NCBI GenBank assembly: GCA_029060725.1
Contig: JAIDTL010000035.1
Location: 31,633 to 95,632, forward strand
DNA length: 64,000 nucleotides
Source of the DNA: Muribaculaceae bacterium
GTDB lineage: Bacteria > Bacteroidota > Bacteroidia > Bacteroidales > Muribaculaceae
Direction of reading: 5' to 3'
How positions within the stretch are numbered: the first letter of the stretch is position 1; each line of letters begins with the position of its first letter. The notes below the pieces were generated by a model. It did not search any database. It saw only the letters and a list, made by a program, of their open reading frames with translations, and was not told the DNA's origin. Made by a program: the position numbers and the translations under genes. Positions 3,315 through 33,800 of this stretch are shown here, in pieces.

Positions 3315-4676
3315 ATGGATTCGAAGAAATTTCTTCTGCAAGAAAAAGATATACCGACTGCATGGTATAATATCGTTGCAGATATGCCGATAAAGCCGCA
3401 GCCAATGATCAATCCGGCTACCGGCGAGCCTCTAAAAGCTGAAGACTTGATGCCACTTTTCTCAAAAGAGGCTTCTCTTCAAGAGATGAACTCAACCGAT
3501 AGGTTTATTGAGATTCCTGAAGAGGTGAGAGAAATGTATAAGATCTATCGTCCTACGCCACTCGTTAGGGCAAGGGGGCTTGAAAAAGCACTTAACACAA
3601 AAGCACATATTTATTTTAAGAATGAAAGTGTAAGTCCTGTAGGAAGCCACAAGCTTAATTCTGCCATTCCTCAGGCATATTTCTGCAAAAGGGAGGGGGT
3701 TACGAATATCACAACAGAGACCGGTGCAGGACAATGGGGAGCAGCACTATCCCTTGCAGCTAAACATTTTGGTCTTAATCTTGCTGTGTATATGGTAAAG
3801 GTGTCTTTCAATCAGAAACCATATCGCAGATCTATTATGCAGACTTATGGAGCCGAAGTGATAGCCTCGCCATCTATGTCTACTAAAGCCGGACGCAAGA
3901 TAATAACTGAAAATCCGACATATCAAGGTTCACTGGGAACTGCAATCTCTGAGGCTGTTGAACTCGCAATGTCAACAGAAAACTGTAAGTATGTACTTGG
4001 ATCTGTATTAAACCATGTGGCACTGCATCAGACCGTAATTGGTCTTGAGGCTGAAAAACAGATGGAGATGGCAGGGGAGTACCCCGATGTTGTGATTGGA
4101 TGCTTTGGTGGTGGAAGTAATTTCTCAGGCATTTCATTCCCATTCATGCGCCATAATTTCAGTGGAGAGCGTAATACCCGTTTTATTGCGGCAGAACCGG
4201 AGTCTTGTCCGAAACTGACACGCGGAAAACTACGCTATGATTTTGGTGATGAGGCAGGATATACCCCAATGATTCCTATGTATACTCTCGGTCATGATTT
4301 TGCACCTGCCAATATTCATGCCGGAGGTCTCCGCTATCATGGAGCCGGCTCTGTGGTAAGCCAGCTTAAGAGTCAGGACCTTATCGAGGCTGTAGATATA
4401 CATCAACTTGAGACATTTGCAGCAGCAACACTGTTTGCTCAGACTGAGGGAATCATTCCTGCTCCTGAAAGTTCTCATGCAATTGCAGCTGCTATCCGTG
4501 AGGCTAAAAAAGCAAATGAAGAAGGTACAGCACCTGTGATTCTCTTCAATTTATCAGGACATGGACTTATTGATATGGCAGCCTACGATAGCTATATCTC
4601 AGGCGATCTCACTAATTATCACGTATCAGATGAAATGATTGAAAAGAACACTCAAAATCTGAAAAAAGTGAAATAA
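3315..4676 (+). CDS. trpB: TrpB2-type tryptophan synthase beta chain-like PLP enzyme
   Basis: ORF track begins at 3195, but the likely start is ATG 3315 (MDSKKFLLQEKDIPTAWYN). Contains YRPTPLVRA, SHKLNSA, TETGAGQWG, CFGGGSNF, LSGHG. Confidence 0.9.
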   Translation: MDSKKFLLQEKDIPTAWYNIVADMPIKPQPMINPATGEPLKAEDLMPLFSKEASLQEMNSTDRFIEIPEEVREMYKIYRPTPLVRARGLEKALNTKAHIYFKNESVSPVGSHKLNSAIPQAYFCKREGVTNITTETGAGQWGAALSLAAKHFGLNLAVYMVKVSFNQKPYRRSIMQTYGAEVIASPSMSTKAGRKIITENPTYQGSLGTAISEAVELAMSTENCKYVLGSVLNHVALHQTVIGLEAEKQMEMAGEYPDVVIGCFGGGSNFSGISFPFMRHNFSGERNTRFIAAEPESCPKLTRGKLRYDFGDEAGYTPMIPMYTLGHDFAPANIHAGGLRYHGAGSVVSQLKSQDLIEAVDIHQLETFAAATLFAQTEGIIPAPESSHAIAAAIREAKKANEEGTAPVILFNLSGHGLIDMAAYDSYISGDLTNYHVSDEMIEKNTQNLKKVK

Positions 4677-4801: not shown

Positions 4802-5719
4802 TTATTTGTTAACTTGGTATTTGTTCCACCCATCTTTGAGATAGGCGAGGACTTGCTCAGCAGCGGCAACACCGGCGTTGAAATTGGCTTCTGCAGTTTG
4901 AGCTCCCATTTTCTTTGGAGTGAAGAATACGCGGGCTCCAAATTTCTTTTCAAATTCTTCAGCTGCATCAGGCTTGATATCGCTGACATAGCGAAGATCA
5001 GGACGTTCTTCAAGAGCCTTGATCAGACCCTCTTCATCTATTACTTCCTTACGTGCTGTATTGACAAGGACACCACCTTTAGGCATTTTCATCACGAGAT
5101 CATAACCTATACTTTTCTTTGTCTCTGCAGTAGCGGGAATATGTAGCGATACAAAATCATTTTCCGAGAATAGAGCATCTACGTCATGCACCGGACGAAC
5201 ACCTTCAGCTTCCATGACTGCATCATCAACAAATTTGTCGAGAGCGGAGATCTTCATACCGAATCCTTTGGCAATTCTTGCAACGTTTCTGCCTACTTGA
5301 CCGAAAGCATAAATACCAAGGTTTTTATCTTTCAATTCAGAACCGGATTTGCCATTATATTGGTTGCGGCACATCATAACTACCATTCCGAATACGAGTT
5401 CTGCAACGGCATTAGAGTTCTGTCCGGGAGTGTTCATGACGCAAATGCCATGTTTTGTAGCAGCTTCGAGGTCTATATTGTCATAGCCAGCGCCGGCTCT
5501 TACGATGACTTTCAGTTTTGGAGCAGCCTCCATAACTTCATCATCTACTTTGTCGCTTCTGACGATAAGACCTTCTACATCCTTTACCGCTTCAATGAGA
5601 TCTTCGCGTGTTCCCATCTCGACGAGTTTCAGTTCATTGCCACTTGCATTGACGGTATTGGCGATAGCCTTAACCGCATCTTTTGCAAAGGGCTTTTCAG
5701 TGAAAACTAATACTTTCAT
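4802..5719 (-). CDS. serA: D-3-phosphoglycerate dehydrogenase
   Basis: 2-hydroxyacid dehydrogenase signatures (RAGAGYDNIDLEAATKHGICVMNTPGQNSNAVAEL, LGIYAFGQVGRNVA); next to serC. Confidence 0.9.
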   Translation of the reverse strand: MKVLVFTEKPFAKDAVKAIANTVNASGNELKLVEMGTREDLIEAVKDVEGLIVRSDKVDDEVMEAAPKLKVIVRAGAGYDNIDLEAATKHGICVMNTPGQNSNAVAELVFGMVVMMCRNQYNGKSGSELKDKNLGIYAFGQVGRNVARIAKGFGMKISALDKFVDDAVMEAEGVRPVHDVDALFSENDFVSLHIPATAETKKSIGYDLVMKMPKGGVLVNTARKEVIDEEGLIKALEERPDLRYVSDIKPDAAEEFEKKFGARVFFTPKKMGAQTAEANFNAGVAAAEQVLAYLKDGWNKYQVNK

Positions 5720-6968: not shown

Positions 6969-8354
6969 TCAGATGATTTGCTGTTTAAGCTTTTCCACAT
7001 ACTCATCTATGCGATGAAGTTCAGCCGGAATATCTATCTCTTGAGGGCAATGATGGACACACTTTCGGCATCCTATGCAGTGGCTCGCTTGCCGCAGCTT
7101 CGGGACTGACCTGTCATATCCTACGAGAAATGCACGGCGTGCTTCAGCATATTTAGGCGATTGCTTTGAAGTCGGGATATTATCTTCGTTGACACACTTA
7201 TTATAATGCAGTAGATTGGCAGGAATATCAATGCCATACGGACACGGCATGCAATATTTACAATCGTTGCAAGGCACCGTAGGATATTGTTTCATAATGT
7301 CTGCTGTCTCCTGAAGAAAAACCAAATCTTCTTCTGTAAGGGGATTGAGTGGACTATATGTATGGATATTATCTTCAAGATGCTCCATATAGGTCATACC
7401 ACTCAATACAGTTAATACGTCAGGGTGTGTACCCGCAAAACGAAATGCCCATGAAGCCACACTCTCCTCAGGATTGCGCTGCTTGAGTCTGTTGGCTATA
7501 TGATCCGGCACTTTTGAAAGTCTGCCTCCGAGCAGAGGCTCCATGATCACTGCAGGTATTTCTCGCTTTGCCAGCTCTTGATAGAGATAATTAGCATTAG
7601 TGCTTAATGGTTCTTCTTCAGCTGTATGTTTCCAATCCATATAGTTAAGCTGAATCTGAACGAAATCCCATTTATACTCATCATGCTTAGATAGAAGATA
7701 GTCGAATACTTCTATGTCTCCATGATAAGAGAATCCAAGATTTTTGATCCTTCCCGCTTCTCTCTCTTTCATGAGGAAATCAAGAATTCCATTGTCAAAG
7801 TATCTTTGATTTAAAGTTTCCAATCCTCCGCCTCCTACCGCGTGGAGAAGCATATAATCGATATAATCAGTTTGGAGTTCCTTCATCGAGTTCTTATACA
7901 TTTCGATGGAGGCTTCTCTTGATTGGGTTGCAGGGTTAAAGTTGGAGAGTTTTGTAGCTATATAATAGCTTTCGCGGGGATGACGGCTCAATGCGATTCC
8001 GGTTGCTTTTTCTGATTTCCCTTGGCAATATACAGGAGATGTATCGAAATAGTTTACGCCGTTTTCAAGAGCTGTGTCTACAAGACGGTTCACCATTTCC
8101 TGGTCTATCTCCTCTTCGCCTTCTGCTCCCCCTTCGACGGGCTTAGTTGGCCATCTCATACACCCATACCCTAAAATTGATACCTTTTCTCCGGTTTTGG
8201 GATTAGTACGATAGGTCATCTCTCCTTCCTTCAGATCAGGAGAAGCAGAAACCGCTTTAGTGGCATTTTTACATCCGGCTAAAGTAAGACTTGCAACGGA
8301 AGTGCCGATTCCGAGTCGCTTAAGGAAACCGCGACGGCTTATGTTATTATTCAT
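6969..8354 (-). CDS. Tat-signal, lipobox-bearing aldo/keto reductase with C-terminal 2x[4Fe-4S] ferredoxin domain
   Basis: MNNNISRRGFLKRLGIGTSVASLTLAGC (twin-Arg plus LAGC), AKR motifs (YFDTSPVY, GFSYHG), clusters CNDCKYCMPCPYGI and CIGCRKCVHHCPQEI. Confidence 0.88.
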   Translation of the reverse strand: MNNNISRRGFLKRLGIGTSVASLTLAGCKNATKAVSASPDLKEGEMTYRTNPKTGEKVSILGYGCMRWPTKPVEGGAEGEEEIDQEMVNRLVDTALENGVNYFDTSPVYCQGKSEKATGIALSRHPRESYYIATKLSNFNPATQSREASIEMYKNSMKELQTDYIDYMLLHAVGGGGLETLNQRYFDNGILDFLMKEREAGRIKNLGFSYHGDIEVFDYLLSKHDEYKWDFVQIQLNYMDWKHTAEEEPLSTNANYLYQELAKREIPAVIMEPLLGGRLSKVPDHIANRLKQRNPEESVASWAFRFAGTHPDVLTVLSGMTYMEHLEDNIHTYSPLNPLTEEDLVFLQETADIMKQYPTVPCNDCKYCMPCPYGIDIPANLLHYNKCVNEDNIPTSKQSPKYAEARRAFLVGYDRSVPKLRQASHCIGCRKCVHHCPQEIDIPAELHRIDEYVEKLKQQII

Positions 8355-8368
8355 ATTTCTTATTTTGG

Positions 8369-9901
8369 TCAGATGATTCGGTGATTTTCATGTCCTTCTA
8401 CGTAGATAGCACTGAAAGGTCGTGCCGGACAAAGATTTTCGCATGCTCCGCAACCTATACATCTCTCAGTGTTGACAGTCGGTATCATGTGTCCGTTTTT
8501 GTATTCTACCATTGTTATAGCTCCGGTAGGGCAGTGGCGTGCACAGTTCCCACATTCTACATCATCTGTGATAGGCACACAGTTTGATTTCACCCATACA
8601 GCATGTCCAATTTGAATAGATGATTTTTCAGCGATGTCTAACGGACGAATAGCACCAGTCGGGCATACGTCTGAACAGCGTGTGCACTCAGGTCTGCAAT
8701 ATCCGTTTTCGTATGAAGATTCCGGTTGCATAAAGTTTTCAATGTCTGTCATCGGACGTAATACTCCATTAGGACAGGCTGAAATGCAAAGCTGGCAAGC
8801 AGTGCAATGATCATTAAGGTTTCGCAAGCTTATAGCTCCCGGAGGTGCGATGCGGGTCTTTCGGTTAGGTTTCTTTTTGTCTTCGATGACAGCGAGTCCG
8901 CCATCAAAAGTCTTATCTGCTGCTGAGAGGGCTGCCGAAGTGCCTAATATGGCAGCCGAGGTAATGAATTGGCGTCGTGAACCATCTATTTTCTCATTTG
9001 CCTGATGGGCATTTGCAGCTTTTAGTCCTACATATTTATAAGACAATGCCCCTTTATTGCATTTTCCTATGCAATCGAAGCAGGACACACAGCGCGAGTA
9101 ATCTATATTATGATTTGGGATGTCGATACAAGATGCTTTGCAATTGCGTGAACAAAGCTTACAGTCTACACATTTCGACTTGTCGATGACAATGCGAAAT
9201 AATGCGAAGCGTGAGAAGAAGCCAAGTACGGTACCGACCGGACAGATTGTATTGCAATAAGTTCTGCCATTTCTCCAGGCAAGAATTGCCAAAACTATTA
9301 GAGTTATGCCTGCTACGATAAGAACACCATATCCGTATTGCCAATATTCCACTTGATAGAAAGCGTAACTATTTCGTTGTTCTGCCCAAGTGGCAAGAAG
9401 ATTATTCCCCCAGATCCATATCGGTTTCAAAAGACTTGAAGCAATTCTGCCGTATGCGCTATATGGAGCAAGAAGTGCAACCATTGAATTAATGCCTAAA
9501 ATGATTGCAATCAGCATAATCCCAAGAAATGTATATCTGAGGATATTTAAAGGTTTTGAATACGAATATCTATTTTTTTTAGCTTTCTTTCCTGCCCATC
9601 CAAATCCGTCTTGCAGGATTCCCAATGGGCATATCACAGAGCAATAAAGCCGTCCGAAAAGCAATGTAAGAATTATAAGTCCTATTATAACAAGTACATT
9701 CAAAGACAGGATGGCAGGGAGAAACTGAATTTTTGCCATCCATCCGAAGATGGAATGCCATGTACCCGTAAAGTCTAAAAATAAAGGTGTTATCAAAAGA
9801 ATGCTTATTAAGGCAAGTATTATTCTGATATTCCTTAAAGGTGTCTTTATAGAATCTCTTTTTGTTGATTTTTTTGTCGCTGACTTTTCGTTTTTATTCA
9901 T
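8369..9901 (-). CDS. NapH/NapG-like polytopic 4Fe-4S protein
   Basis: N-terminal membrane region with CPLGILQDGFGW and CPVGTVLGFF (NapH/CcoG-like), internal SRRQFITSAAILGTSAALSA segment, then several CxxCxxCxxxCP motifs. Confidence 0.82.
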   Translation of the reverse strand: MNKNEKSATKKSTKRDSIKTPLRNIRIILALISILLITPLFLDFTGTWHSIFGWMAKIQFLPAILSLNVLVIIGLIILTLLFGRLYCSVICPLGILQDGFGWAGKKAKKNRYSYSKPLNILRYTFLGIMLIAIILGINSMVALLAPYSAYGRIASSLLKPIWIWGNNLLATWAEQRNSYAFYQVEYWQYGYGVLIVAGITLIVLAILAWRNGRTYCNTICPVGTVLGFFSRFALFRIVIDKSKCVDCKLCSRNCKASCIDIPNHNIDYSRCVSCFDCIGKCNKGALSYKYVGLKAANAHQANEKIDGSRRQFITSAAILGTSAALSAADKTFDGGLAVIEDKKKPNRKTRIAPPGAISLRNLNDHCTACQLCISACPNGVLRPMTDIENFMQPESSYENGYCRPECTRCSDVCPTGAIRPLDIAEKSSIQIGHAVWVKSNCVPITDDVECGNCARHCPTGAITMVEYKNGHMIPTVNTERCIGCGACENLCPARPFSAIYVEGHENHRII

Positions 9902-10050: not shown

Positions 10051-12684
10051 TTATCTTTGAATATACTTTCTTCCGCCGCGGATTACAATTCCTTTATAAG
10101 ACTCATCAACCTCTTGACCGAAAATATTGTATACTTTATCAATGTCTGGATTTGCATTAACTAATATATCATCAATGCCTGTGTCAAGATCCGATCCGTC
10201 GATATATGATTTTTCGTTTACGAAAAAGAGAGTTATTTTCTCCGGTTTTGACGCAATATTCATATTGAATGAATAATTGTATGCTTTTCCAGCTTCGGTC
10301 GTTATGGTTGAATTCATTGAGAAATTGCCATTATAATCGTATGCGGTGTGCATATCTACCAATGAATTGTTCATATCGTTTTTAAAAGTATCCCAATTGT
10401 AGTCGCTTGAGCATCCATTATTGCTCATGGTCGTATTGTTCCAATTGTCGCAGCGTATACCGAAGTATTCTGTATAAGCGCTTGCCCCATGTGTTGAGTT
10501 TGCACCATAAAGACACCAATTGTGCCAATTTTCGGCTGCTCCTGAATAGTTGTAGAAGTGAAAGTCAGCTGATTCTCCCATCTGAATCACATAGTCGTCC
10601 ATTGAAAAATTAGACCACCATCCGGCATTGATATCCTTCTTTTGAGACACTGGATAATAGACTGCTGCTTCCGGTTGGTGTGTTTTGTCTCCTGTAGATC
10701 GAGTATATGGTCCCATCTTAAAAAAGAGATCTCCTGATTTCACTTCTATTGAAATTGTGATTTCGTGTCCATCTTCAGTGGGAGAATAAATGCCTTCAGA
10801 CGACAAAGTTTCGGGCTCCGGTTCGCCTGTTGCAGCATTTCTCACATCAAATGTCAGAGTGACATTTTCAAATTGCGGTGCATCGCCCTGAATAAGAGTG
10901 TTATCGTTTCCAATGAAGTTATTGACTAATCTTTTATATGCATCAGCTACCGCACTCTTAGGAGTTAGTTTATAGAGCCAAACGGGGACTCCATTCTTGT
11001 TAGTGGCTGTAAAGCATATAGAAGGCATGTCTTGATATCCGTCAACATTCTGGTTTAAAACTACTCCATAATATGCTACGTTGTTGATGTTCAACGTCAC
11101 ATAAGATTTTCCATCCTCAGAGTAAGCCCAAGTGCCCGCGCGGTCACCTGAGATCTTACCATCTTCAGAAAGCTTGACAGTTATGGGTGTTGACTCAGCC
11201 ATATTATTATGATCAAGTTTATAAGGATGGATTAGAAGTTTGTATGTTCCTGCTATTTCTTGAGGAGAGAAAAGTTGCCGGCTTTCAATATCGGCTTGGC
11301 GGGTTTGTTTCCCCGTGAATCGGAATGGGGAAGCGACGGGCCAACCAAGTTCATTGATAAAGAGTTGACGAGTTCTGACATTGAATCCTAAAGTACCGTT
11401 ATGGAATTTAGTATGGTAAACTACAAATGCATCTCCCTCAGAATCGACTATTGCTGAATTATGCCCTTCTGCACATTCTCCGACAGTCATTGTGCCCCAA
11501 TTATTCATAGCCCCTATGATTTTAACACCTTTATTCGTAGCTGCTTTCGGACCATAGTTAAGCTGATAATTGGTATATGTTGCTGCAGCTCCGGCACTGT
11601 CTTTATAAGGTCCATCAGGATTTGAAGAGCGGAAAATGCGCATTTCATATCCACCATCAGGAGCTAATCCTCCGTACGTCACAAAGAGATAGTAATAATC
11701 TCCAATCTTCTGGATATATGGTCCTTCCCCGGATACGTAGCATCCTCCTGCTATTAGTCTTCCGAAGTAAGGATCACTTGTATATCCGGTAAATGAAGCA
11801 CCATTAGGTGCCTTTCCATTATAGGTTTTAGCATCGTAAGTATATGTATAATCACGAAGACCTGTGTTGGGGTCAAGTTTTATTATGAAAATACCTCCTG
11901 ACCATGAGCCGTAGACCATCCAAAGCTGATCGTCGTCGTCAAAGAAAATGCATGGATCAATGCAATTGGGCCAAAGGTTGCCCCAAGCGGAAGTCTTGTA
12001 GCGCGAGGGTAGTTGGTCCAGTTCTCCAAGTACAAGTTCGAGATCAGTGTCCTTATAGGAAACACTCTTTCCTGAATAAGTCTGGCCATTGAACCCACTG
12101 CTTATAATGGGAGCTTGATATTGGAATGGACCTGTCGGTTTGTCAGAAGTGAGTAAAACAATTGTGGATGCCCAGTAATCACCGTTAAGCGACAAATACA
12201 TACACCATTTTCCCATATTGGGATTGTAAATTACATCAGGAGCCCATTGGTCGCCGGAAATCCAATTAGCTTCACTTACTGGCTTGCGATCTCCAACTTG
12301 GATTCCGGCGTATGTAGAACAATATGCTCCGGCGTCAAATGATCGGAGTGTTTCTGTTGTAGTGACTCCATTACGAGTCACTTGTACGGAATGCTCAGGA
12401 CTTGATTTGAATTCCTGGGCGTAGCCTTTAGTATAAATTCCGGAATTGTTGATGTTGGTCAGATTAATAAGATCGGTAGTTTTTGCAAATCCTATATGCG
12501 AACCCATTATATAATAGGTCTCATCTACTGGATTATAATAAATCGACGGATCATGAACTCCAACCTCTTTGTAAGATTTAGAAGTTGGCATATCAGAGAT
12601 ATCACTAATTGTTAATTCAGTCTCAGCTTTTCCTATAAATGGCATAATAAAAGCAGACAACAAAATTATAGCATGTCTATACAT
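10051..12684 (-). CDS. Secreted GH43-family (endo-arabinanase-like) glycoside hydrolase
   Basis: Signal peptide; VHDPSIYYNPVDETYYIMGSH, WAPDVIYNPNMGKWCMYLS, GEGPYIQKIGDYYYLFVTYGG; C-terminal tail KVYNIFGQEVDESYKGIVIRGGRKYIQR. Confidence 0.85.
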   Translation of the reverse strand: MYRHAIILLSAFIMPFIGKAETELTISDISDMPTSKSYKEVGVHDPSIYYNPVDETYYIMGSHIGFAKTTDLINLTNINNSGIYTKGYAQEFKSSPEHSVQVTRNGVTTTETLRSFDAGAYCSTYAGIQVGDRKPVSEANWISGDQWAPDVIYNPNMGKWCMYLSLNGDYWASTIVLLTSDKPTGPFQYQAPIISSGFNGQTYSGKSVSYKDTDLELVLGELDQLPSRYKTSAWGNLWPNCIDPCIFFDDDDQLWMVYGSWSGGIFIIKLDPNTGLRDYTYTYDAKTYNGKAPNGASFTGYTSDPYFGRLIAGGCYVSGEGPYIQKIGDYYYLFVTYGGLAPDGGYEMRIFRSSNPDGPYKDSAGAAATYTNYQLNYGPKAATNKGVKIIGAMNNWGTMTVGECAEGHNSAIVDSEGDAFVVYHTKFHNGTLGFNVRTRQLFINELGWPVASPFRFTGKQTRQADIESRQLFSPQEIAGTYKLLIHPYKLDHNNMAESTPITVKLSEDGKISGDRAGTWAYSEDGKSYVTLNINNVAYYGVVLNQNVDGYQDMPSICFTATNKNGVPVWLYKLTPKSAVADAYKRLVNNFIGNDNTLIQGDAPQFENVTLTFDVRNAATGEPEPETLSSEGIYSPTEDGHEITISIEVKSGDLFFKMGPYTRSTGDKTHQPEAAVYYPVSQKKDINAGWWSNFSMDDYVIQMGESADFHFYNYSGAAENWHNWCLYGANSTHGASAYTEYFGIRCDNWNNTTMSNNGCSSDYNWDTFKNDMNNSLVDMHTAYDYNGNFSMNSTITTEAGKAYNYSFNMNIASKPEKITLFFVNEKSYIDGSDLDTGIDDILVNANPDIDKVYNIFGQEVDESYKGIVIRGGRKYIQR

Positions 12685-24972: not shown

Positions 24973-26208
24973 ATGAAAAGAAAATTCATAAAAATATCAA
25001 TGCTGATCTGCTCGGCTCTTGTCATTAATTCCGCAAATTTTGGATGTGGAAAAAGTCATACGGAAACGGAAACTGCCGATGAACATCATGATCACGACGG
25101 ACATGATCATGAAAGCGAAGGGCATGACCATTATGAAGAGGATGAGCATGATCATGGCCATTCTGATGGTGAGGGGCATGAGGGTCATGACCATAGCGGT
25201 CTAATCGAGATGAATGAGCATACTATGCATAGATTCGGAGTGCAGACAGAAAAAATCAATCCTTCGGATTTTGCAGAGGTGACTTTGGTATCAGGCCGGA
25301 TAGAGGCTAAAGCTTCGGATGAAGGTGTAGCTACAGCTACCCGCAATGGCATACTTACACTTTCTCCTAATATCAATACCGGAGTAAGAGTCAATGCAGG
25401 TAGCGCCATAGGGTCAATTTCTGCGTCAAATGTACAAGGAGGAGACCCTACAGTGCAAGCCATAGCTGTCAGGAATGCTGCCAAACGTGAGCTTGATCGT
25501 CTTAAGCCTTTGCATGATGATGGCATCGTCAGCACTGAAGAATATAATAATGCACTTAAGGCATACGAGGAAGCCGATGCTGCTGTGAAGACATCGAAGC
25601 AGGGAAGTGCAAGTGTGACTTCACCAAAGTCGGGCGTGATAACCCAACTATTGGCAAAAACCGGAGAATATGTTGAGATAGGACAGAGAATAGCTGTCGT
25701 AAGTGGCAACACAAGTCTTACTCTAAGGGCAGACGTGCCTGAGAAATATATCGGTCGGCTTCCGGGAATTACATCTGCTAATTTCCGTCCGGCCTCTTCC
25801 GATCAAATACTTGATCTTGACGAACTGAATGGAAAGTTGATTTCAAATTCTGGGTCATCGGTATCAGAATCTGGATACATACCGGTCTATTTTTCATTCA
25901 GCAATAACGGTGCGGTTGCTCCGGGTGCTTTTGCAGAGATATATTTGAAGTCTGGTGTTCGTCATGATGTGATCTCTGTGCCCAAGGATGCCATTGTGGA
26001 AATCAACGGCAATAAATGTGTCTACGCTTCTCATGGTGAAGATCATTTTATCAAGCATATTGTGACTCTCGGAGCTTCCGATGGAAAAAGGGTAGAGGTG
26101 CTTTCAGGTCTTGATGCAGGAGAAGAAGTCGTAGTGAAAGGAGCGCAAGCTGTCAGAATGGCTGAGACTTCAGCCACAGCAGTTCCGGGTCATACTCATA
26201 ATCATTAA
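24973..26208 (+). CDS. RND efflux periplasmic adaptor (CusB/CzcB-like) with His/Asp/Glu-rich N-terminus
   Basis: HHDHDGHDHESEGHDHYEEDEHDHGHSDGEGHEGHDHSG segment, then HlyD-type hairpin/lipoyl regions; C-terminal GHTHNH. Confidence 0.88.
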   Translation: MKRKFIKISMLICSALVINSANFGCGKSHTETETADEHHDHDGHDHESEGHDHYEEDEHDHGHSDGEGHEGHDHSGLIEMNEHTMHRFGVQTEKINPSDFAEVTLVSGRIEAKASDEGVATATRNGILTLSPNINTGVRVNAGSAIGSISASNVQGGDPTVQAIAVRNAAKRELDRLKPLHDDGIVSTEEYNNALKAYEEADAAVKTSKQGSASVTSPKSGVITQLLAKTGEYVEIGQRIAVVSGNTSLTLRADVPEKYIGRLPGITSANFRPASSDQILDLDELNGKLISNSGSSVSESGYIPVYFSFSNNGAVAPGAFAEIYLKSGVRHDVISVPKDAIVEINGNKCVYASHGEDHFIKHIVTLGASDGKRVEVLSGLDAGEEVVVKGAQAVRMAETSATAVPGHTHNH

Positions 26209-26219
26209 AAGCTACTGTC

Positions 26220-29200
26220 ATGCTGAATAAAATTATCAATTGGTCTCTGACCAACAGGCTGATCGTGCTTTTGGCTGTCTGCGCCACGATAATAGCAGGT
26301 CTATTCGTGCTTGTCCGCACTGAGATAGATATATTTCCTGACCTCAACGCCCCTACAGTGGCGATTATGACTGAGGCTGCCGGACTCGCTCCGGAGGAAG
26401 TGGAAAAATCAGTGACTTATCCTATAGAGACGGCAGTCAATGGAGCATCCGGAGTGAGAAGGGTGCGTTCAAGTTCCGCTACAGGATTTTCAGTAGTATG
26501 GGTAGAATTTGATTGGAATACGGATGCTTATAAGGCCCGTCAGACAGTAAGTGAGCGACTTTCCGGTATCGAAGGAAGCCTTCCTGCAAATGTAGGTAAT
26601 CCTGTCATGGGTCCGCAGTCATCAATACTTGGTGAGATCATGATTATCGGTCTTACATCAGACAGCATATCACAAGGAGAGCTTCGCAGTGTGGCTGACC
26701 GCACCATACGTCCGCGTCTCCTTTCACTTGCCGGGGTCAGCCAAGTTTCAGTGATCGGTGGCGAGGAACTTGAATACCAGATTCTGCTAAGTCCGGAAAA
26801 GATGCGTCATTACGGTGTTTCGCTTTCCGACGTAGTGGATGCTACGGAGAATATGAATGTCAATGTTTCCGGAGGCGTTACATACGAGTACGGCAATGAA
26901 TATTTGATAAAGGGTGTAGTCGCTACCACTGATGCTTCAGAGATCGCGGATGCTGCGGTCAAGAATGAATCGGGACAATCCTTTAAGATAGGGGATATAG
27001 CAGAAGTAAAAGTAGGTCCTAAAACACCGAAAATTGGTACTGCAACATTGCGGACTAAGCCGGCAGTGCTGGTAACTGTCACGAAGCAACCAGCTGTCGG
27101 ATCGATAGAACTTACCAAAGAAATTAATAAGGAATTAGAAAATCTCAGCAACTCTCTTCCCTCAGGAATAGAAGTTGATACTCAAATCTTCAACCAAAGC
27201 CAGTTTATCCAGACCTCTGTAAGCAATTTGCAGCAGTCATTGCTTGAGGGAGCATTGTTTGTGATAATCGTACTGTTCTTTTTCCTGATGAATCTGAGGA
27301 CTACTGTTATTTCAGTTGTGGCAATTCCACTATCGATTCTCATTACTGTGATTGCCCTTTATTATATGGGTTTCACTATCAATACGATGACTCTCGGTGG
27401 CATTGCAATTGCAATTGGTTCGCTCGTAGATGATGCAATTGTAGATGTTGAGAATGTCTACAAGCGACTCAGAGAAAACAGAATGAAAAGTGGAGATGAG
27501 CGTCTGCCAATTATAAAGGTAGTATATGAAGCTTCTCGCGAAGTCCGTAAGCCTATTCTTAATTCTACTCTCATCATAGTAGCATCATTTATTCCTTTAT
27601 TCTTCCTAAGTGGAATAGAAGGACGGCTATTGAAACCTCTTGGCATTGCATTTATCGTGGCTCTTGCAGCATCTACAGTTGTAGCTCTCACCCTTACACC
27701 GGTATTATGCAGTTATCTTCTTGCTGGAGATAAAAAGAAGGAGGCAAAAGAGTTGGATAAAGAGCCAAAGACTGCTTTATGGCTTCGTGAGCATTATTCT
27801 AATCTCCTTGATAAAGTGCTCTTGCGTCCACGTCCATGGCTTATAGGAGTCTCTGCACTTTTTGTCATTGCAGTCGCTGTTTTCTTTACATTGGGCAGAA
27901 GTTTCCTTCCCGGATTCAATGAAGGAAGCTTTACCATCAATGTCAGCGCAATGCCCGGTATATCTCTCGAACAGAGCGACAGCATGGGTATTGCTGCAGA
28001 GCGTATCATTATGTCAGTTCCGGAAGTGAGAAATGTGGCTCGTAAGACAGGACGTGCCGAACTTGATGAGCATGCACTTGGCGTAAATACTTCAGAAATG
28101 GAAGTCCCATATATCCTTGACAAGGGGAGGAAAAAGAATGAAGTGGTAAGGGAACTACGCGAAAAACTTTCGGAATTGCCGGGAGTGAATGTTGAGATTG
28201 GTCAACCTATATCACATCGTATAGATGCAATGCTGAGCGGAGCACAAGCACAAATCGCAGTTAAGATCTTCGGCTATGACCTTGACAAACTCTACACGAT
28301 AGGTCAGCAGATCGGATCAGAAATGAAGGAAGTGTCTGGAGTGGTAGATGTCAATGTGGAGCAGCAAATTTCCCGTCCGCAACTTGATATCGTGCCAAGG
28401 CGAGAGATGCTTTCCAAATACGGGATTACAATTCCTGAGTTTGCGAGATATGTTCAGATGGCTATTGGTGGTGACGTGGTCAGTCAGGTGTTTGTAGGCA
28501 ATCGTCCTTACGATCTCACTGTGAAGGTGGAAGATACTAAACGCGATACAAAGGAGCGAATTGAAGATTTGATGATTGACAGCAATGTCGGTATGATTCC
28601 TCTTTCATACGTCGCTGATGTGAAAGTGGGTAGTGGTCCTAACACTATCAATAGGGAAAATGTCAGCCGATTGCTTACTGTTTCTGCAAATGTTGATGGG
28701 CGAGACCTTAAAAGTGCTGTCGATGAGATAAAGAAGACAATAGCAGAACATGTGGAGCTTCCGGAGGGTTACTTCGTGACATACGGCGGACAATTTGAAA
28801 ATGAAGAGGCTGCGTCACGAATGCTTTCTTTGACATCAATTCTTGCTTTGGTAGTAATATTCTTCTTGATTTATTCGGAGTTCAAAAGCGTGGCAGAATC
28901 TCTTACAATTCTTGTGAACATGCCTTTGGCTCTCATCGGCGGAGTTCTCATATTGAGGTTCACCACTGGAGATTTAAATATTCCGGCAATCATTGGTTTT
29001 ATTTCCCTAATGGGTATTTCAACCCGCAATGGAATGCTTTTAATCTCTCGCTATAACCGTCTGCGCTCGGAAGGAATGGGGATAATGGAGACTGTGAAAA
29101 AAGGTTCCGCTGATCGTCTGCTTCCCATCATAATGACAGCCCTGACATCAGCATTGGCTCTTGTGCCGATAGCAGTACGAGGGGGAGAACCCGGCAATGA

Positions 29201-29330
29201 AATTCAGTCACCTCTTGCCATCGTTATCCTTGGAGGTTTGATAAGCAGCACGTTGTTGAACATTTTTATCGTGCCGGTGTTGTACAAATGGATTCATCAA
29301 CGTAAAGAAAAGAAATCTACGGTTGCATAA
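26220..29330 (+). CDS. HME-type RND efflux permease (CusA/CzcA-like)
   Basis: 1036 aa; IDIFPDLNAPTVAIMTEA, GSLVDDAIVDVENVYKRL, GISTRNGMLLISRYNRL. Confidence 0.93.
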   Translation: MLNKIINWSLTNRLIVLLAVCATIIAGLFVLVRTEIDIFPDLNAPTVAIMTEAAGLAPEEVEKSVTYPIETAVNGASGVRRVRSSSATGFSVVWVEFDWNTDAYKARQTVSERLSGIEGSLPANVGNPVMGPQSSILGEIMIIGLTSDSISQGELRSVADRTIRPRLLSLAGVSQVSVIGGEELEYQILLSPEKMRHYGVSLSDVVDATENMNVNVSGGVTYEYGNEYLIKGVVATTDASEIADAAVKNESGQSFKIGDIAEVKVGPKTPKIGTATLRTKPAVLVTVTKQPAVGSIELTKEINKELENLSNSLPSGIEVDTQIFNQSQFIQTSVSNLQQSLLEGALFVIIVLFFFLMNLRTTVISVVAIPLSILITVIALYYMGFTINTMTLGGIAIAIGSLVDDAIVDVENVYKRLRENRMKSGDERLPIIKVVYEASREVRKPILNSTLIIVASFIPLFFLSGIEGRLLKPLGIAFIVALAASTVVALTLTPVLCSYLLAGDKKKEAKELDKEPKTALWLREHYSNLLDKVLLRPRPWLIGVSALFVIAVAVFFTLGRSFLPGFNEGSFTINVSAMPGISLEQSDSMGIAAERIIMSVPEVRNVARKTGRAELDEHALGVNTSEMEVPYILDKGRKKNEVVRELREKLSELPGVNVEIGQPISHRIDAMLSGAQAQIAVKIFGYDLDKLYTIGQQIGSEMKEVSGVVDVNVEQQISRPQLDIVPRREMLSKYGITIPEFARYVQMAIGGDVVSQVFVGNRPYDLTVKVEDTKRDTKERIEDLMIDSNVGMIPLSYVADVKVGSGPNTINRENVSRLLTVSANVDGRDLKSAVDEIKKTIAEHVELPEGYFVTYGGQFENEEAASRMLSLTSILALVVIFFLIYSEFKSVAESLTILVNMPLALIGGVLILRFTTGDLNIPAIIGFISLMGISTRNGMLLISRYNRLRSEGMGIMETVKKGSADRLLPIIMTALTSALALVPIAVRGGEPGNEIQSPLAIVILGGLISSTLLNIFIVPVLYKWIHQRKEKKSTVA

Positions 29331-29355
29331 GTCAGTATAAACTATACTACTAAAC

Positions 29356-30540
29356 ATGAATAAAAGATATTATTTAGCAATAGTTCCGGCACTCTTATCG
29401 AGTGCCGGAGTTTATGCCATCACTCCTCAAGAAGCGGCTAATTCCATTCTTAGCCGCAATGGCGATCGACTTCAGATAGCGGTAGAGCAAAATGCAAAAG
29501 ACCTTGAAACCCGTACGCTTGCCAACGCGCCTGATCCGAGTCTGGAGGGTGATTATATGGTAATGCCTGAGGGGGTTGATAATCGTTGGAATGTGGCAAT
29601 AGGATATGAGATGGAATGGCCCGGCGTATATAAATCGCGTCGAGAGTTGGGGAAAGCTATGCGAAATGCAAATGCCGCGGAGGCAGATGCCGGAGTATAC
29701 AACAAATATATTGAGATTCTAAAAGAGATTGGCACGTATCTATATGCTGAGCGCCGCATAGCAATGATGCGTCATATTCAGTCTGCTACAGACTCCCTTT
29801 ATAATGCAGCGGTTAAAGCCACCAAGGGTGGGCAAATGTCACGCCTTAATTTATCGAAGATAACTTTGGAGCAAGGGCGTGTCAATACACTGATTGCAAA
29901 TCTGGAAGCGGAAAAAAACGGAAGTGAGGGAAATCTTAAGACTCTCAATGGAGGTTATGATTGTGGGGCTCTCCTGAGGAGTATAGACCGCGAATGGGTG
30001 ATGACTCCTACACATTCATTAGAAGAGTATCTGGAAGAAGCAAGGACGAATCCTGAGCTGAAGAAAGCTATTTCTGAATTGGAAGTTGCTGAGCGAAACA
30101 TTGGTGTGGCTAAAGCAGAGGGATTGCCAAATATCTCAATAGGCTATCATCACGATTTTGAGGATGCAATGCATTTTAATGGTGCTACCCTTGGCGTTTC
30201 TATACCATTGTTTGCCAATAGGGGCAAGGTTAAGGCAGCGCAGGCTGCAAAGGCTGTAGCGGAGTATCAGGTCACTGTGACAAATGATAAGGTGGAATCA
30301 GAGATAACGGCTCTGTATGAAGAAGTACAACTTATCGATCAGGCTTTGAAAGTGCCTATGGAGGTGTTTGCGTCTACAGATTATAATACTCTTCTTTTGA
30401 AGGCGTATCGAGGAGGAGAACTTTCATTGACCGATTATCTTCAAGAGCGGTCATGGTTTAGCGAGGCACATCTCGATCTTCTCGAACTCCAATATCAGCG
30501 TGAGCAGCGCATGTGGCTATTGTCGCTCTTATGCAAATAA
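29356..30540 (+). CDS. TolC/CzcC-like outer-membrane efflux protein
   Basis: Signal peptide; coiled-coil TolC-type repeats; last gene of the RND operon. Confidence 0.85.
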   Translation: MNKRYYLAIVPALLSSAGVYAITPQEAANSILSRNGDRLQIAVEQNAKDLETRTLANAPDPSLEGDYMVMPEGVDNRWNVAIGYEMEWPGVYKSRRELGKAMRNANAAEADAGVYNKYIEILKEIGTYLYAERRIAMMRHIQSATDSLYNAAVKATKGGQMSRLNLSKITLEQGRVNTLIANLEAEKNGSEGNLKTLNGGYDCGALLRSIDREWVMTPTHSLEEYLEEARTNPELKKAISELEVAERNIGVAKAEGLPNISIGYHHDFEDAMHFNGATLGVSIPLFANRGKVKAAQAAKAVAEYQVTVTNDKVESEITALYEEVQLIDQALKVPMEVFASTDYNTLLLKAYRGGELSLTDYLQERSWFSEAHLDLLELQYQREQRMWLLSLLCK

Positions 30541-30616
30541 GGGCTTGAAATAATAAAGAAAGTTGCTATCGCATACAGCTGAAAATAAGCTTTAAGGCGA
30601 CCATAGAATCAGCCGT

Positions 30617-30735
30617 GATGGAATTTTTTAGGTCATCAGGAGTGTTAAAATGGGGTAAAAATGCCCATTTTAACACTCCTGATGGAAATTTTTGGGAATT
30701 TCAGCGTTTTTCAGCTTCCAAGACTTTGATGAATT
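30617..30735. repeat. 119-bp direct repeat, copy 1 (3' side of rloB; includes the rloB stop and last codons)
   Basis: Aligned without gaps to 32510-32628, 5 mismatches by eye. Confidence 0.93.
30634..30684. repeat. 21-bp perfect inverted repeat with 9-nt loop inside direct-repeat copy 1
   Basis: CATCAGGAGTGTTAAAATGGG-GTAAAAATG-CCCATTTTAACACTCCTGATG. Confidence 0.95.
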
Positions 30736-31258
30736 CATATATGTTTGATGATGGATTTGTAGGCCAAACCATTTTCTCTGCCTTTAAACTTGCTGCATCC
30801 TTATTAGCCAGCAAATGCAATTGCTGATCCATTGTCAACTTACCTTTCATATATGCTTTCCATACTTGATGGCTTGACATAAGCTCCTTAAGTATTGAAT
30901 CCGGTTGAACATACCTACGATGGTTCTTCGAATGCAGCATATACCACAATTCTATTGATGGATTAGATAATATGGTTGTGCCGGGAAGACTCATAAGTTT
31001 CTCCACAATGCAATCCACGTCAGCATCATATATGAAGAAGACCTGACAATCGTCATTTCTGGTAAGACCCAGTTCCTTCAAATATTGGTTTACGAGTCGT
31101 AAAGATACTGCATTTCCACTTACTTTTGTCTTAATTGTGATTGGAAGTCTATAATGCCGCTTTAATAGATTGACGTATTCCTCCTCCGTCTCTCCTTCAC
31201 ATACAACAAGAAACACTTTATGAGGTTTGCGAGTCTTCTTATACCTTCGTTCTCTCAT
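30701..31258 (-). CDS. rloB: RloB-like protein (Toprim-like)
   Basis: FLVVCEGETEEEYVNLLKRHY and VFFIYDADVD acidic motifs; 185 aa; directly follows an RloA-like ATPase gene. Confidence 0.85.
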   Translation of the reverse strand: MRERRYKKTRKPHKVFLVVCEGETEEEYVNLLKRHYRLPITIKTKVSGNAVSLRLVNQYLKELGLTRNDDCQVFFIYDADVDCIVEKLMSLPGTTILSNPSIELWYMLHSKNHRRYVQPDSILKELMSSHQVWKAYMKGKLTMDQQLHLLANKDAASLKAEKMVWPTNPSSNIYEFIKVLEAEKR

Positions 31259-31265
31259 AACTGAT

Positions 31266-32432
31266 CTAAATGCCGGAAATCAAAGATTTAATATTCCCAA
31301 TATATGGCACTCCATCGAAGCGTCCCTGCAAATATGCCGCCCTGAGATCCGGAATACGCTCTATTCCATCATAGTCTGAGAGAGGTATGAATTCAGAATT
31401 CCCGTTGGTATGTTTTGTGACCAACACTATCTGCTCGGGTCGCAGTTTGTTAGTGTTAAGAAGCATGGGATTGTGGCTTGTGAATATGAACTGCATGTTT
31501 TTCGTTGCCCTTATGGCATCTAATATGAATTCCGCAAGGTAAAGATGCAGTTTCAGATCAAATTCATCTAAAAATACAGTGCATCCGTCATATTGCTTCT
31601 TAAAAAGAACCATAAGAATAAAAAGAAGTCTTTTTGTGCCTTCAGATTCCTCTTTGTCGAAATCAAATGAGATAGCAGGGTCCTCTTTGTGAAAACTGAG
31701 TAGCCTCATTTGTCCGGCTACAGTTTCATCCCATCGAATGTCAATAATGTCGCTGTCACTTACCTCTAAAGCTTTCAAAAGGACGGGGCGGCACAATTCA
31801 AAATCCTCTCTTGCTATATCCGTGAGATTGAATCCATCAATCTCAGTGATTACCCTATGTAAGAAAAAATTATAGACCACTTGGGGAATTGCCCTGTTCA
31901 TTGAACTTGCCCGACTAAGGAAAAGGGTCTTAGAACCGGTATTTGCTTCTATTTCTGCCGGGCGAGGAATTAATCCTTTTCCATATGAATAGGCGTTACC
32001 GGCTTCTCTAACAAAAACCTTTGCCTTCCTTCGATTGGGATAATGATAAAGACTTTCTGTCATGATCTTCCCGTCTTTAATAGAGAAGGAGTATTCATAT
32101 TCCACGTCATCAACCACGAAATCTATGTAAAATTCTGATGGTTTATCTTTTTCAAATTTAAATGGTTGGAAATCGAATTTATCTCCTTCATTTGAAAGGT
32201 GTGAGTTTATAATAAGATTGCGGCAGAATGCCATTGTCTTGATAATATTAGATTTTCCGGCAGCATTTCCACCGAAAAGTCCTATTATATTGACAAATTT
32301 ATCTCCATTGAAATCAATAAGGTTTTCTGTAAGTGGATCCATATTCTTATGGGATGACGAGTCAACAGTGAAGTCAAGGACCGCATCATCACGCAAAGAA
32401 AAAAAATTTTTTACCTTCAGGGCGATTACCAT
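31266..32432 (-). CDS. rloA: RloA-like AAA/OLD-type ATPase
   Basis: Walker A GLFGGNAAGKSNII, Walker B CTVFLDEFDLKLHL, IFTSHNPMLL; 388 aa; 8-nt spacing to rloB. Confidence 0.87.
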   Translation of the reverse strand: MVIALKVKNFFSLRDDAVLDFTVDSSSHKNMDPLTENLIDFNGDKFVNIIGLFGGNAAGKSNIIKTMAFCRNLIINSHLSNEGDKFDFQPFKFEKDKPSEFYIDFVVDDVEYEYSFSIKDGKIMTESLYHYPNRRKAKVFVREAGNAYSYGKGLIPRPAEIEANTGSKTLFLSRASSMNRAIPQVVYNFFLHRVITEIDGFNLTDIAREDFELCRPVLLKALEVSDSDIIDIRWDETVAGQMRLLSFHKEDPAISFDFDKEESEGTKRLLFILMVLFKKQYDGCTVFLDEFDLKLHLYLAEFILDAIRATKNMQFIFTSHNPMLLNTNKLRPEQIVLVTKHTNGNSEFIPLSDYDGIERIPDLRAAYLQGRFDGVPYIGNIKSLISGI

Positions 32433-32452
32433 AATTAATCATATTATTTCGT

Positions 32453-32461
32453 GCAAAGATA
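32453..32461 (-). promoter_or_regulatory. -7 box (TATCTTTGC) for rloAB
   Basis: Plus strand GCAAAGATA 21 bp upstream of the rloA start, between rloA and repeat copy 2. Confidence 0.55.
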
Positions 32462-32509
32462 AAAAAAATCATCTTATAATGCAAGTTTTAAGAACCCGAT
32501 TATTATTGA

Positions 32510-32628
32510 GATGGAATTTTTTAGGTCATTAGGAGTGTTAAAATGGGGTAAAAATGCCCATTTTAACACTCCTGATGGAAATTTTTGGGAATTTCAGCGT
32601 TTCTCTGATTCCAAGATTTTGATGAATC
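32510..32628. repeat. 119-bp direct repeat, copy 2 (upstream of rloA)
   Basis: Near-identical to 30617-30735, including the hairpin (arms 32527-32547 and 32557-32577). Confidence 0.93.
32594..32626 (-). pseudogene. Remnant of an rloB 3' end (FIKILESEKR*)
   Basis: Minus-strand TTC ATC AAA ATC TTG GAA TCA GAG AAA CGC TGA versus rloB TTC ATC AAA GTC TTG GAA GCT GAA AAA CGC TGA; in-frame stop immediately upstream. Confidence 0.6.
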
Positions 32629-32642
32629 AGACTTGTCTGATT
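32625..32642. repeat. 18-nt palindrome AATCAGAC-tt-GTCTGATT at the outer end of repeat copy 2
   Basis: Perfect 8-bp arms; straddles the end of repeat homology. Confidence 0.7.
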
Positions 32643-32666
32643 GCTTCTGAATAAGGGTTAGTTGCT

Positions 32667-33800
32667 TCAGTAAAAGTAGGAGTCGAGGGCAGCCTTGACT
32701 TCGTCGGGTCCGAAGTCGGCGAAGACGATTTTACCTTCCGGGTCGATGATGAATACTCCTGAGCTTGATGCTCCATGGCGATCGAATACACGAAATTCAT
32801 TGTCAAGGTCAACGAGTGTGGGCCATGGATATTGGTCTTTCTCTACGACACTTCGGAGTGCATCGGTGTTTTTAAATTCTCTTGTCAGTGCGAATACATT
32901 GAGACCTTTCTTTAGATATGGGTCGATGAATGCAGCAATCTCTTGACATTCACGTCGGCACGGAGCGCACCATGTAGCCCATAAGATTACCAGATTATAA
33001 CATCCGGGTTTGAGGAAATCATAAGCCTTTACTTTTTCTCCGTCTATAGTTCTGACGTCATAATCATGATAGGTGCCTCCATATATCTGAAGACCTGAGT
33101 TTGCATTTTTAGCGATACTTTGATGAGCCGGATGTCCGGGATATTTGTCTGAATAGTATTCGTTATATGTTTTGATTTGGTTCATCAATGCATGATCATT
33201 GAATCGGAAGGATGCCAAACGATAATCAAGATCAAGCATAAAGGATATCATCGGATTCTGTGCATAGTAATCTTGTTCCCACTTATTTGTCTCATCATTC
33301 AATAATTCGTACATTTCTGAAGCTACATTCTCGTCTTCAATCTTTTCTATCTCCTCAGCTTTTGACATGAATGTTTCCATTTCAAGTTCTTTCATCCTGT
33401 CAGATGCCAGTTGTTCCTGACCTGTGGAAACAACATCAATCCTGTCGTCATGCAATGTTGCTGTTATCTCTGCACCGTCTTCGATCAGAAAATACGCAAA
33501 ACGTGAAGTACTGCCATTGTTTATTAATTGAGATAAGTCTGTGATGTGATACTGCTCTATGAAATCTGTCTCGATGTCAATTTCATAGATTCCATTCTCA
33601 AGTTTTGTCCTATAAGGACTTTTTGCTGTGTCTTCTCTTGCTTTTGAAATCGCGAGTTCTGTCGGTGCAACTCCTTTAGCTGCCTTTACTGTTATGTGAG
33701 TCTTTTCCTTTGCCATTGCAGTTATTGAACTGCAAATCATTAAAGCTGAAACGGAAGATTTTACCAAAGCTGATACAGATATAGATTTTTTAGTAGCCAT
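32667..33800 (-). CDS. TlpA-like thioredoxin-family protein
   Basis: Signal-like N-terminus; VILWATWCAPCRRECQEIAAFIDPYL (WCAPC); 377 aa. Confidence 0.85.
   Translation of the reverse strand: MATKKSISVSALVKSSVSALMICSSITAMAKEKTHITVKAAKGVAPTELAISKAREDTAKSPYRTKLENGIYEIDIETDFIEQYHITDLSQLINNGSTSRFAYFLIEDGAEITATLHDDRIDVVSTGQEQLASDRMKELEMETFMSKAEEIEKIEDENVASEMYELLNDETNKWEQDYYAQNPMISFMLDLDYRLASFRFNDHALMNQIKTYNEYYSDKYPGHPAHQSIAKNANSGLQIYGGTYHDYDVRTIDGEKVKAYDFLKPGCYNLVILWATWCAPCRRECQEIAAFIDPYLKKGLNVFALTREFKNTDALRSVVEKDQYPWPTLVDLDNEFRVFDRHGASSSGVFIIDPEGKIVFADFGPDEVKAALDSYFY

Follow-up and report, generated by a model that had tools for sequence, protein, structure and literature searches.

A repeat-bounded rloA/rloB gene pair in Muribaculaceae as a candidate non-autonomous mobile defence cassette

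The gene pair described here resembles the defence systems AbiL, RloA/RloB and PARIS (AriA/AriB) in combining an ATPase with a TOPRIM-like partner, in the gene order rloA-rloB and in its matches to family models. It is poorly understood how small stand-alone defence genes come and go outside defence islands when no mobile element is visible. In pdif modules and other Xer-mobilised elements, a gene unit lies between sites and has no recombinase of its own. Among the defence pairs, RloB/AbiLii is related to OLD_TOPRIM and PARIS (PMC10440598), and AriB, a related Toprim effector, cuts tRNA (PMC12409363). By their relation to AbiL and PARIS, RloA is probably a sensor ATPase and RloB a nuclease effector (PMC10440598, PMC12409363, PMC10568477). 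In the literature we found no report of repeats around rloAB.

Layout of the locus and anatomy of its repeats

The window, as we call the whole 64,000-nucleotide stretch that was analysed, comes from an uncultured gut Muribaculaceae bacterium, whose genome is G000 in our comparison set. A preliminary description of this DNA had reported an RloA/RloB pair between direct repeats at 30617-30735 and 32510-32628 with five mismatches. The repeats, here termed R, are real, but the ungapped count over 119 bp is six, with five in the first 118; the pair is 96% identical over 30617-30734/32510-32627, and its start-to-start spacing is 1,893 bp, the length that had been given for the repeat-plus-cargo unit. 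Because the local-alignment score is 106.5 against a shuffle maximum of 14.5, this similarity is far beyond chance. The unit reads on the minus strand in the order R_up, promoter box TATCTTTG, rloA, rloB and R_dn, with the following features.

30536..30543, unstranded: AATAAGGG at the left border, a putative target-site duplication of 8 bp judged from one empty allele (G066, with a single AAATAGGGGG at the joined site)
30544..32657, unstranded: DNA that G066 lacks at this junction (the insert together with one AATAAGGG); 25765-30547 and 32655-32832 are contiguous in L227
30617..30735, minus strand: R_dn, repeat copy downstream of rloB (repeat alignment)
30617..30634, minus strand: second repeat unit of R_dn (GACCTAAAAAATTCCATC; pattern match G000:C100:62249-62266, 64-bp offset)
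30634..30684, unstranded: 21-bp inverted repeat with a 9-nt loop within R_dn (single-strand fold -25 kcal/mol, z -8.9)
30681..30698, minus strand: first repeat unit of R_dn, a degenerate copy 64 bp from the second unit
30701..31258, minus strand: rloB, 185 aa, AbiLii-like, with conserved E21 and D78/D80 of TOPRIM type (family models, alignment)
31266..32432, minus strand: rloA, 388 aa, AbiLi-like AAA/ABC ATPase, Walker motifs conserved (family models, alignment)
32433..32509, minus strand: rloA promoter region with the Bacteroidales-like box TATCTTTG, between R_up and rloA (sequence)
32510..32628, minus strand: R_up, repeat copy upstream of rloA (repeat alignment)
32594..32626, minus strand: rloB 3'-end remnant (FIKILESEKR-stop) within R_up (sequence comparison)
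32650..32657, unstranded: right copy of AATAAGGG (sequence; G066 comparison)

Besides rloB and rloA, no further convincing gene was found between the window repeats, and no recombinase or transposase is encoded inside the element, in agreement with the preliminary description. Its placement of the locus also stands: on one side lies a CusA/RND-like efflux operon with a TolC-like gene (named from sequence), and on the other a TlpA-like gene (Pfam AhpC-TSA/Redoxin). R occurs twice in its own genome, both times at this locus, with no further copy. A REP-like genome-wide repeat was considered and rejected, as R has only these two copies in its own genome and one locus in congeners.

The proposed kinship of the pair with AbiLi/AbiLii was borne out by family models, which assign rloB to Pfam RloB (5.7e-19) and PADLOC AbiLii (5.2e-20), and rloA to Pfam AAA_21 (2e-29) and PADLOC AbiLi (2.2e-67). 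The locus thus has the make-up of an AbiL/RloAB pair, an AbiLi-type ATPase with Walker motifs and an adjacent RloB/AbiLii partner. PARIS is not the best family, since AriA comes second for RloA at 6.9e-28, behind AbiLi, and RloB matches AbiLii only. When a predicted RloB model (pLDDT 90.8) was compared with solved structures, no significant match was obtained (best E 0.01), and the TOPRIM reading therefore rests on motifs, family models and the literature. Residues E21, D78 and D80 are invariant in 17 RloB sequences; both genes of the window look functional because RloB keeps E21 and D78/D80 and RloA its Walker motifs. Family membership points to a role in phage defence, and we assume that RloAB acts as an AbiL/PARIS-like abortive-infection pair.

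R is bipartite: of 44 copies, 41 have two units of ~20 bp (GACCCAAAAAGTCCATC-like) at a spacing of 63-64 bp (64 bp in 34 and 63 bp in seven); shuffled R gives a best unit match of at least 15/20 in 0.1% of cases. The R of G301 has a different unit sequence, which forms a perfect repeat at 63 bp. This spacing, about six helical turns, suggests protein binding at R. The 64-bp period was also weighed as a CRISPR-like (repeat-spacer-repeat) arrangement, an idea given up since the middle of R is largely conserved from site to site, and no Rfam family matched at R. Within each window copy there is an inverted repeat of 21 bp (100% complementary in one copy, 95% in the other), and palindrome arms range from 5 to 21 bp across R copies. 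The hairpin was rejected as an essential part of R, being weak or absent in G049, G244, G073 and G140, and the R copy of L067 folds no better than its shuffles. R also overlaps the cargo: the stop and last ~11 codons of rloB lie inside R_dn, and the FIKILESEKR-stop of R_up corresponds to FIKVLEAEKR-stop of rloB. The repeats reach into the rloB tail in G000, G063, G100 and G108, and into the rloA promoter side in G140, G069 and G099. At most other R-rloAB sites a TAnnTTTG-like box occupies the same place as TATCTTTG.

Distribution of R and its tie to one RloAB branch

The genomes compared are mostly metagenome-assembled, with one per species. The preliminary description had allowed for the repeat being absent elsewhere; a DNA search found R matches in 20 of 111 congeneric genomes, and a covariance model found them in 29 of 397 genomes of the family, spread over six genera. 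In an ab initio test, the sequence upstream of rloA was compared with that downstream of rloB for direct repeats, which bound 14 of the 15 close RloAB loci (those with at least 43% RloB identity; one of the 14, in G071, has R_up only partly on the contig). The fifteenth, in G086, has kept rloAB with only the upstream R present. Among distant RloAB loci of the family, a repeat was found at one of 15 (G267), its sequence unrelated to R but also palindromic, and an order-level search found any repeat at two of 25 RloAB loci, one of them a minisatellite. In a tree of 42 RloA, all 18 R-associated sequences (G010 and G086 among them with one R only) fall on one side of a single branch (100/100, one change) and come from four genera. 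Judged by neighbouring genes, R-rloAB occupies ~14 different chromosomal insertion sites.

The unit motif GACCYAAAAANKTYCRTC occurs at 29 places in 18 of the 111 congeners, i.e., 22 in rloAB cassettes, three in an rhuM cassette of G070 and four solitary (G008, G019, G061 and G085), while its reversed control pattern gave zero matches in the same 111 genomes. This confinement means that R belongs to the rloAB cassette and is not a general platform, so that the shared 3' element of a wider cassette system, as proposed in the preliminary description, does not hold. The sites of the solitary R of G019 and G085 are occupied in relatives, but several solitary R are without a known occupied relative. 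R loci number at most one per genome, G071 having one locus split over two contigs. Carriage by a plasmid or phage was also considered and rejected: neither plasmid DNA nor phage proteins gave a match, and Enterococcus faecium plasmids have only an RloB of ~30% identity.

The alternative cargo in G070 is an rhuM-family gene in the orientation opposite to rloAB, lying between 233-bp direct repeats that contain R (L068:7717-7949 and 8891-9123). Look-alike repeats were seen around other genes. The distant RloAB of G267 (31% RloB identity) sits between 97-bp direct repeats (L143:5039-5135 and 6976-7072) that are unrelated to R in sequence and have their own ~19-bp palindrome arm; the repeat-bounded RloAB architecture may thus have arisen twice. 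An RloAB from another family (L217 in G770) has a ~65-bp direct repeat, unrelated to R, on both sides. In G369, an ATPase_2-family gene lies between 83% identical direct repeats of ~138 bp (L151:2775-2903 and 4545-4674), which include a palindromic stretch, with a weak R-model match nearby.

Occupied, one-R and empty alleles at the same sites

At several orthologous sites the two-R state with rloAB could be compared with a one-R state. In G298, the upstream flank of the G244 site runs through a single R into the downstream flank; G159 and G177 have one R without rloAB at the site where G140 has two R and rloAB; and beside trmD, G085 has one R without rloAB where G069 and G025 are occupied. The solitary R of G298, G159 and G085 are closest to the R of their own site, and no rlo remnant is left at the one-R alleles. 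Of the G102 site, one unit survives in G019 and a partial unit in G079. Zero-R states were found as well: in G066 at the window's own site, where the tolC and tlpA ends meet at CAAATAGGGGGTTGG, in G096 beside trmD, where neither neighbour has been lost, and in G078 at the G001 site. Across the congeners, trmD was matched in 102 genomes, and R adjoins it in three only.

The preliminary description had looked to the efflux-tlpA junction of relatives for empty (one-repeat) or other-cargo alleles, and had considered that the repeats might be fixed there. An empty allele exists at that junction, in G066, supporting the view of a small insertion in ordinary chromosome; it has zero R, whereas one-R alleles (G298, G159, G177 and G085) and the rhuM cargo (G070) are found at other sites. 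The pattern that would have refuted that description, with rloAB and both repeats fixed in every relative, no empty site or other cargo and no repeat elsewhere, is not what the relatives show. The 8-bp AATAAGGG at both window borders (30536-30543 and 32650-32657), based on this one empty allele, fits a target duplication by transposition but could also reflect a microhomology deletion in G066. An exact-word search recognised no outer duplication at other insertion sites, and by eye no terminal inverted repeats are present at 30544 and 32649, the ends being bounded by direct repeats.

Some further features adjoin these sites. At the empty site, the tlpA-like gene of G066 (L227:4778-4980) lacks a large internal stretch (window 32832-33448); identity to the window is 94% at the 3' end of this gene and 78% on the efflux side, a contrast that looks like the outcome of recombination. 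In G140, a terminator-like hairpin (ACAAACCCCGGCTGCAT...) lies on both outer cassette sides (L139 around 4853-4906 and 7009-7059), and is single-copy in the one-R relatives. In G102, an unrelated second direct repeat of 107 bp, 3.2 kb apart, adjoins the cassette (L140:7149-7254 and 10318-10424). Beside trmD, short tandem units AAAAAAGGAAGAGGAATAA..CGCTGAT adjoin the cassette site in several species (L065, L061, L069 and L238).

The two R of one site are 93% identical on average, against 69% between sites. G000 and G063 form an orthologous pair in which both R of G000 have GGGCATTTTTACCCC as palindrome centre and both R of G063 its reverse complement; because the centre is inverted in both copies, sequence appears to pass between the two R of a site once they have been inserted.

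A probable mobile cassette, its rivals and the known systems

The reading we favour, and hold to be fairly probable, is that R, promoter, rloA, rloB and R together make up a compact mobile cassette for defence that is non-autonomous. Recombination between the two R would delete rloAB and leave a one-R scar, for which ordinary homologous recombination over ~100 bp would suffice; the same process would keep the two R alike, and an incoming copy could re-enter the scar. The one-R alleles are probably deletion products, although it is not proven in every case whether DNA was lost or gained. The preliminary description had suggested exchange or loss by recombination between repeats, and the one-R, zero-R and rhuM alleles are consistent with this part of its model, whereas the general platform is not. 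Spread to new sites would be rare and would depend on an enzyme acting in trans, for which no recombinase or transposase could be named. The inserted DNA may have been longer than one unit, and a circular or head-to-tail intermediate is suggested because the repeats include stretches of the rloB tail or the rloA promoter. Against mobility speaks the limit of one site per genome, which is not how an active transposon behaves.

Less likely, though worth weighing, is that R serves this rloAB branch as a control element (an operator, insulator or terminator, perhaps protein-bound at its two units with their 64-bp offset). Both flanks would then require R, gene conversion would hold the two copies identical, and the operon would relocate through ordinary horizontal transfer together with illegitimate recombination. 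R goes with rloAB, borders the rloA promoter on its upstream side, sits directly at the rloB stop, and keeps its 63-64-bp spacing despite sequence change, so that exclusivity and spacing are accounted for. Scars and rhuM are not: solitary R persists without rloAB, and rhuM is likewise flanked by R; moreover, the palindrome is not conserved and G086 has rloAB with one R. It is quite improbable that R is a site-specific recombination site served in trans by an Xer-like or resolvase-like host recombinase, as in integrase-less cassettes, with an R x R circle integrating at solitary R or other targets. The bipartite site with fixed spacing, the precise one-R alleles and a cassette encoding no recombinase would suit this mechanism, but no recombinase linked to R was found, homologous recombination yields the same alleles, and insertion at sites without R also needs explaining.

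The possible action of RloAB itself on R, by cutting or copying, would be the most surprising rival, with the pair driving the homing or spread of its own cassette and defence being a by-product or second role. We regard it as very unlikely: R and one RloAB branch evolve together, the catalytic residues are intact and the element has no other enzyme, yet R is absent from most RloAB families, the related Toprim effector AriB cuts tRNA (PMC12409363), and in G070 rhuM lies between R without rloAB. Chance similarity or an assembly artefact, a concern with mostly metagenome-assembled genomes, can practically be dismissed, given a score far above shuffles and the same architecture in many independent genomes. 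It is tempting to speculate, as a rather doubtful proposition, that the mobile cassette represents a previously undescribed class of small element, in which a defence pair between bipartite direct repeats, with no recombinase, spreads and is lost via these repeats, possibly with the defence ATPase-nuclease acting on them. For R-rloAB, one and the same site can be found occupied, as a scar or empty in different genomes; the 64-bp-spaced units make R a sequence tag by which former defence sites can be counted in genomes, and the mechanism of gain and loss is open to direct laboratory test.

Within the AbiL, RloAB and PARIS group, the locus differs in that only this Muribaculaceae branch is bounded by R and that RloB is without a close solved structure. 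As in integron gene cassettes with their attC sites, a structured repeat ends the unit and overlaps the end of the last gene, and there is a one-repeat empty state; in the R loci examined, however, there is no integrase, no array and no conserved folded attC-type site, the hairpin not being conserved, and the repeat is tied to one cargo branch with one site per genome. pdif/Xer modules likewise have a unit between sites without its own recombinase, whereas R is ~96-119 bp long with two units 64 bp apart. MITEs, REP/RAYT and IS200/IS605-type elements share the non-autonomous state and, with the window's branch, hairpin-bearing ends; R, in contrast, is not multi-copy (two copies in its own genome, one locus in relatives), forms direct rather than terminal inverted repeats and lacks the hairpin in many copies. 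With LTR elements and solo LTRs the cassette shares two long direct repeats, repeat x repeat loss leaving one, and a short target duplication (putative here); there is no reverse transcriptase, integrase or RNA stage, and the resemblance is thus an analogy of behaviour, not kinship.
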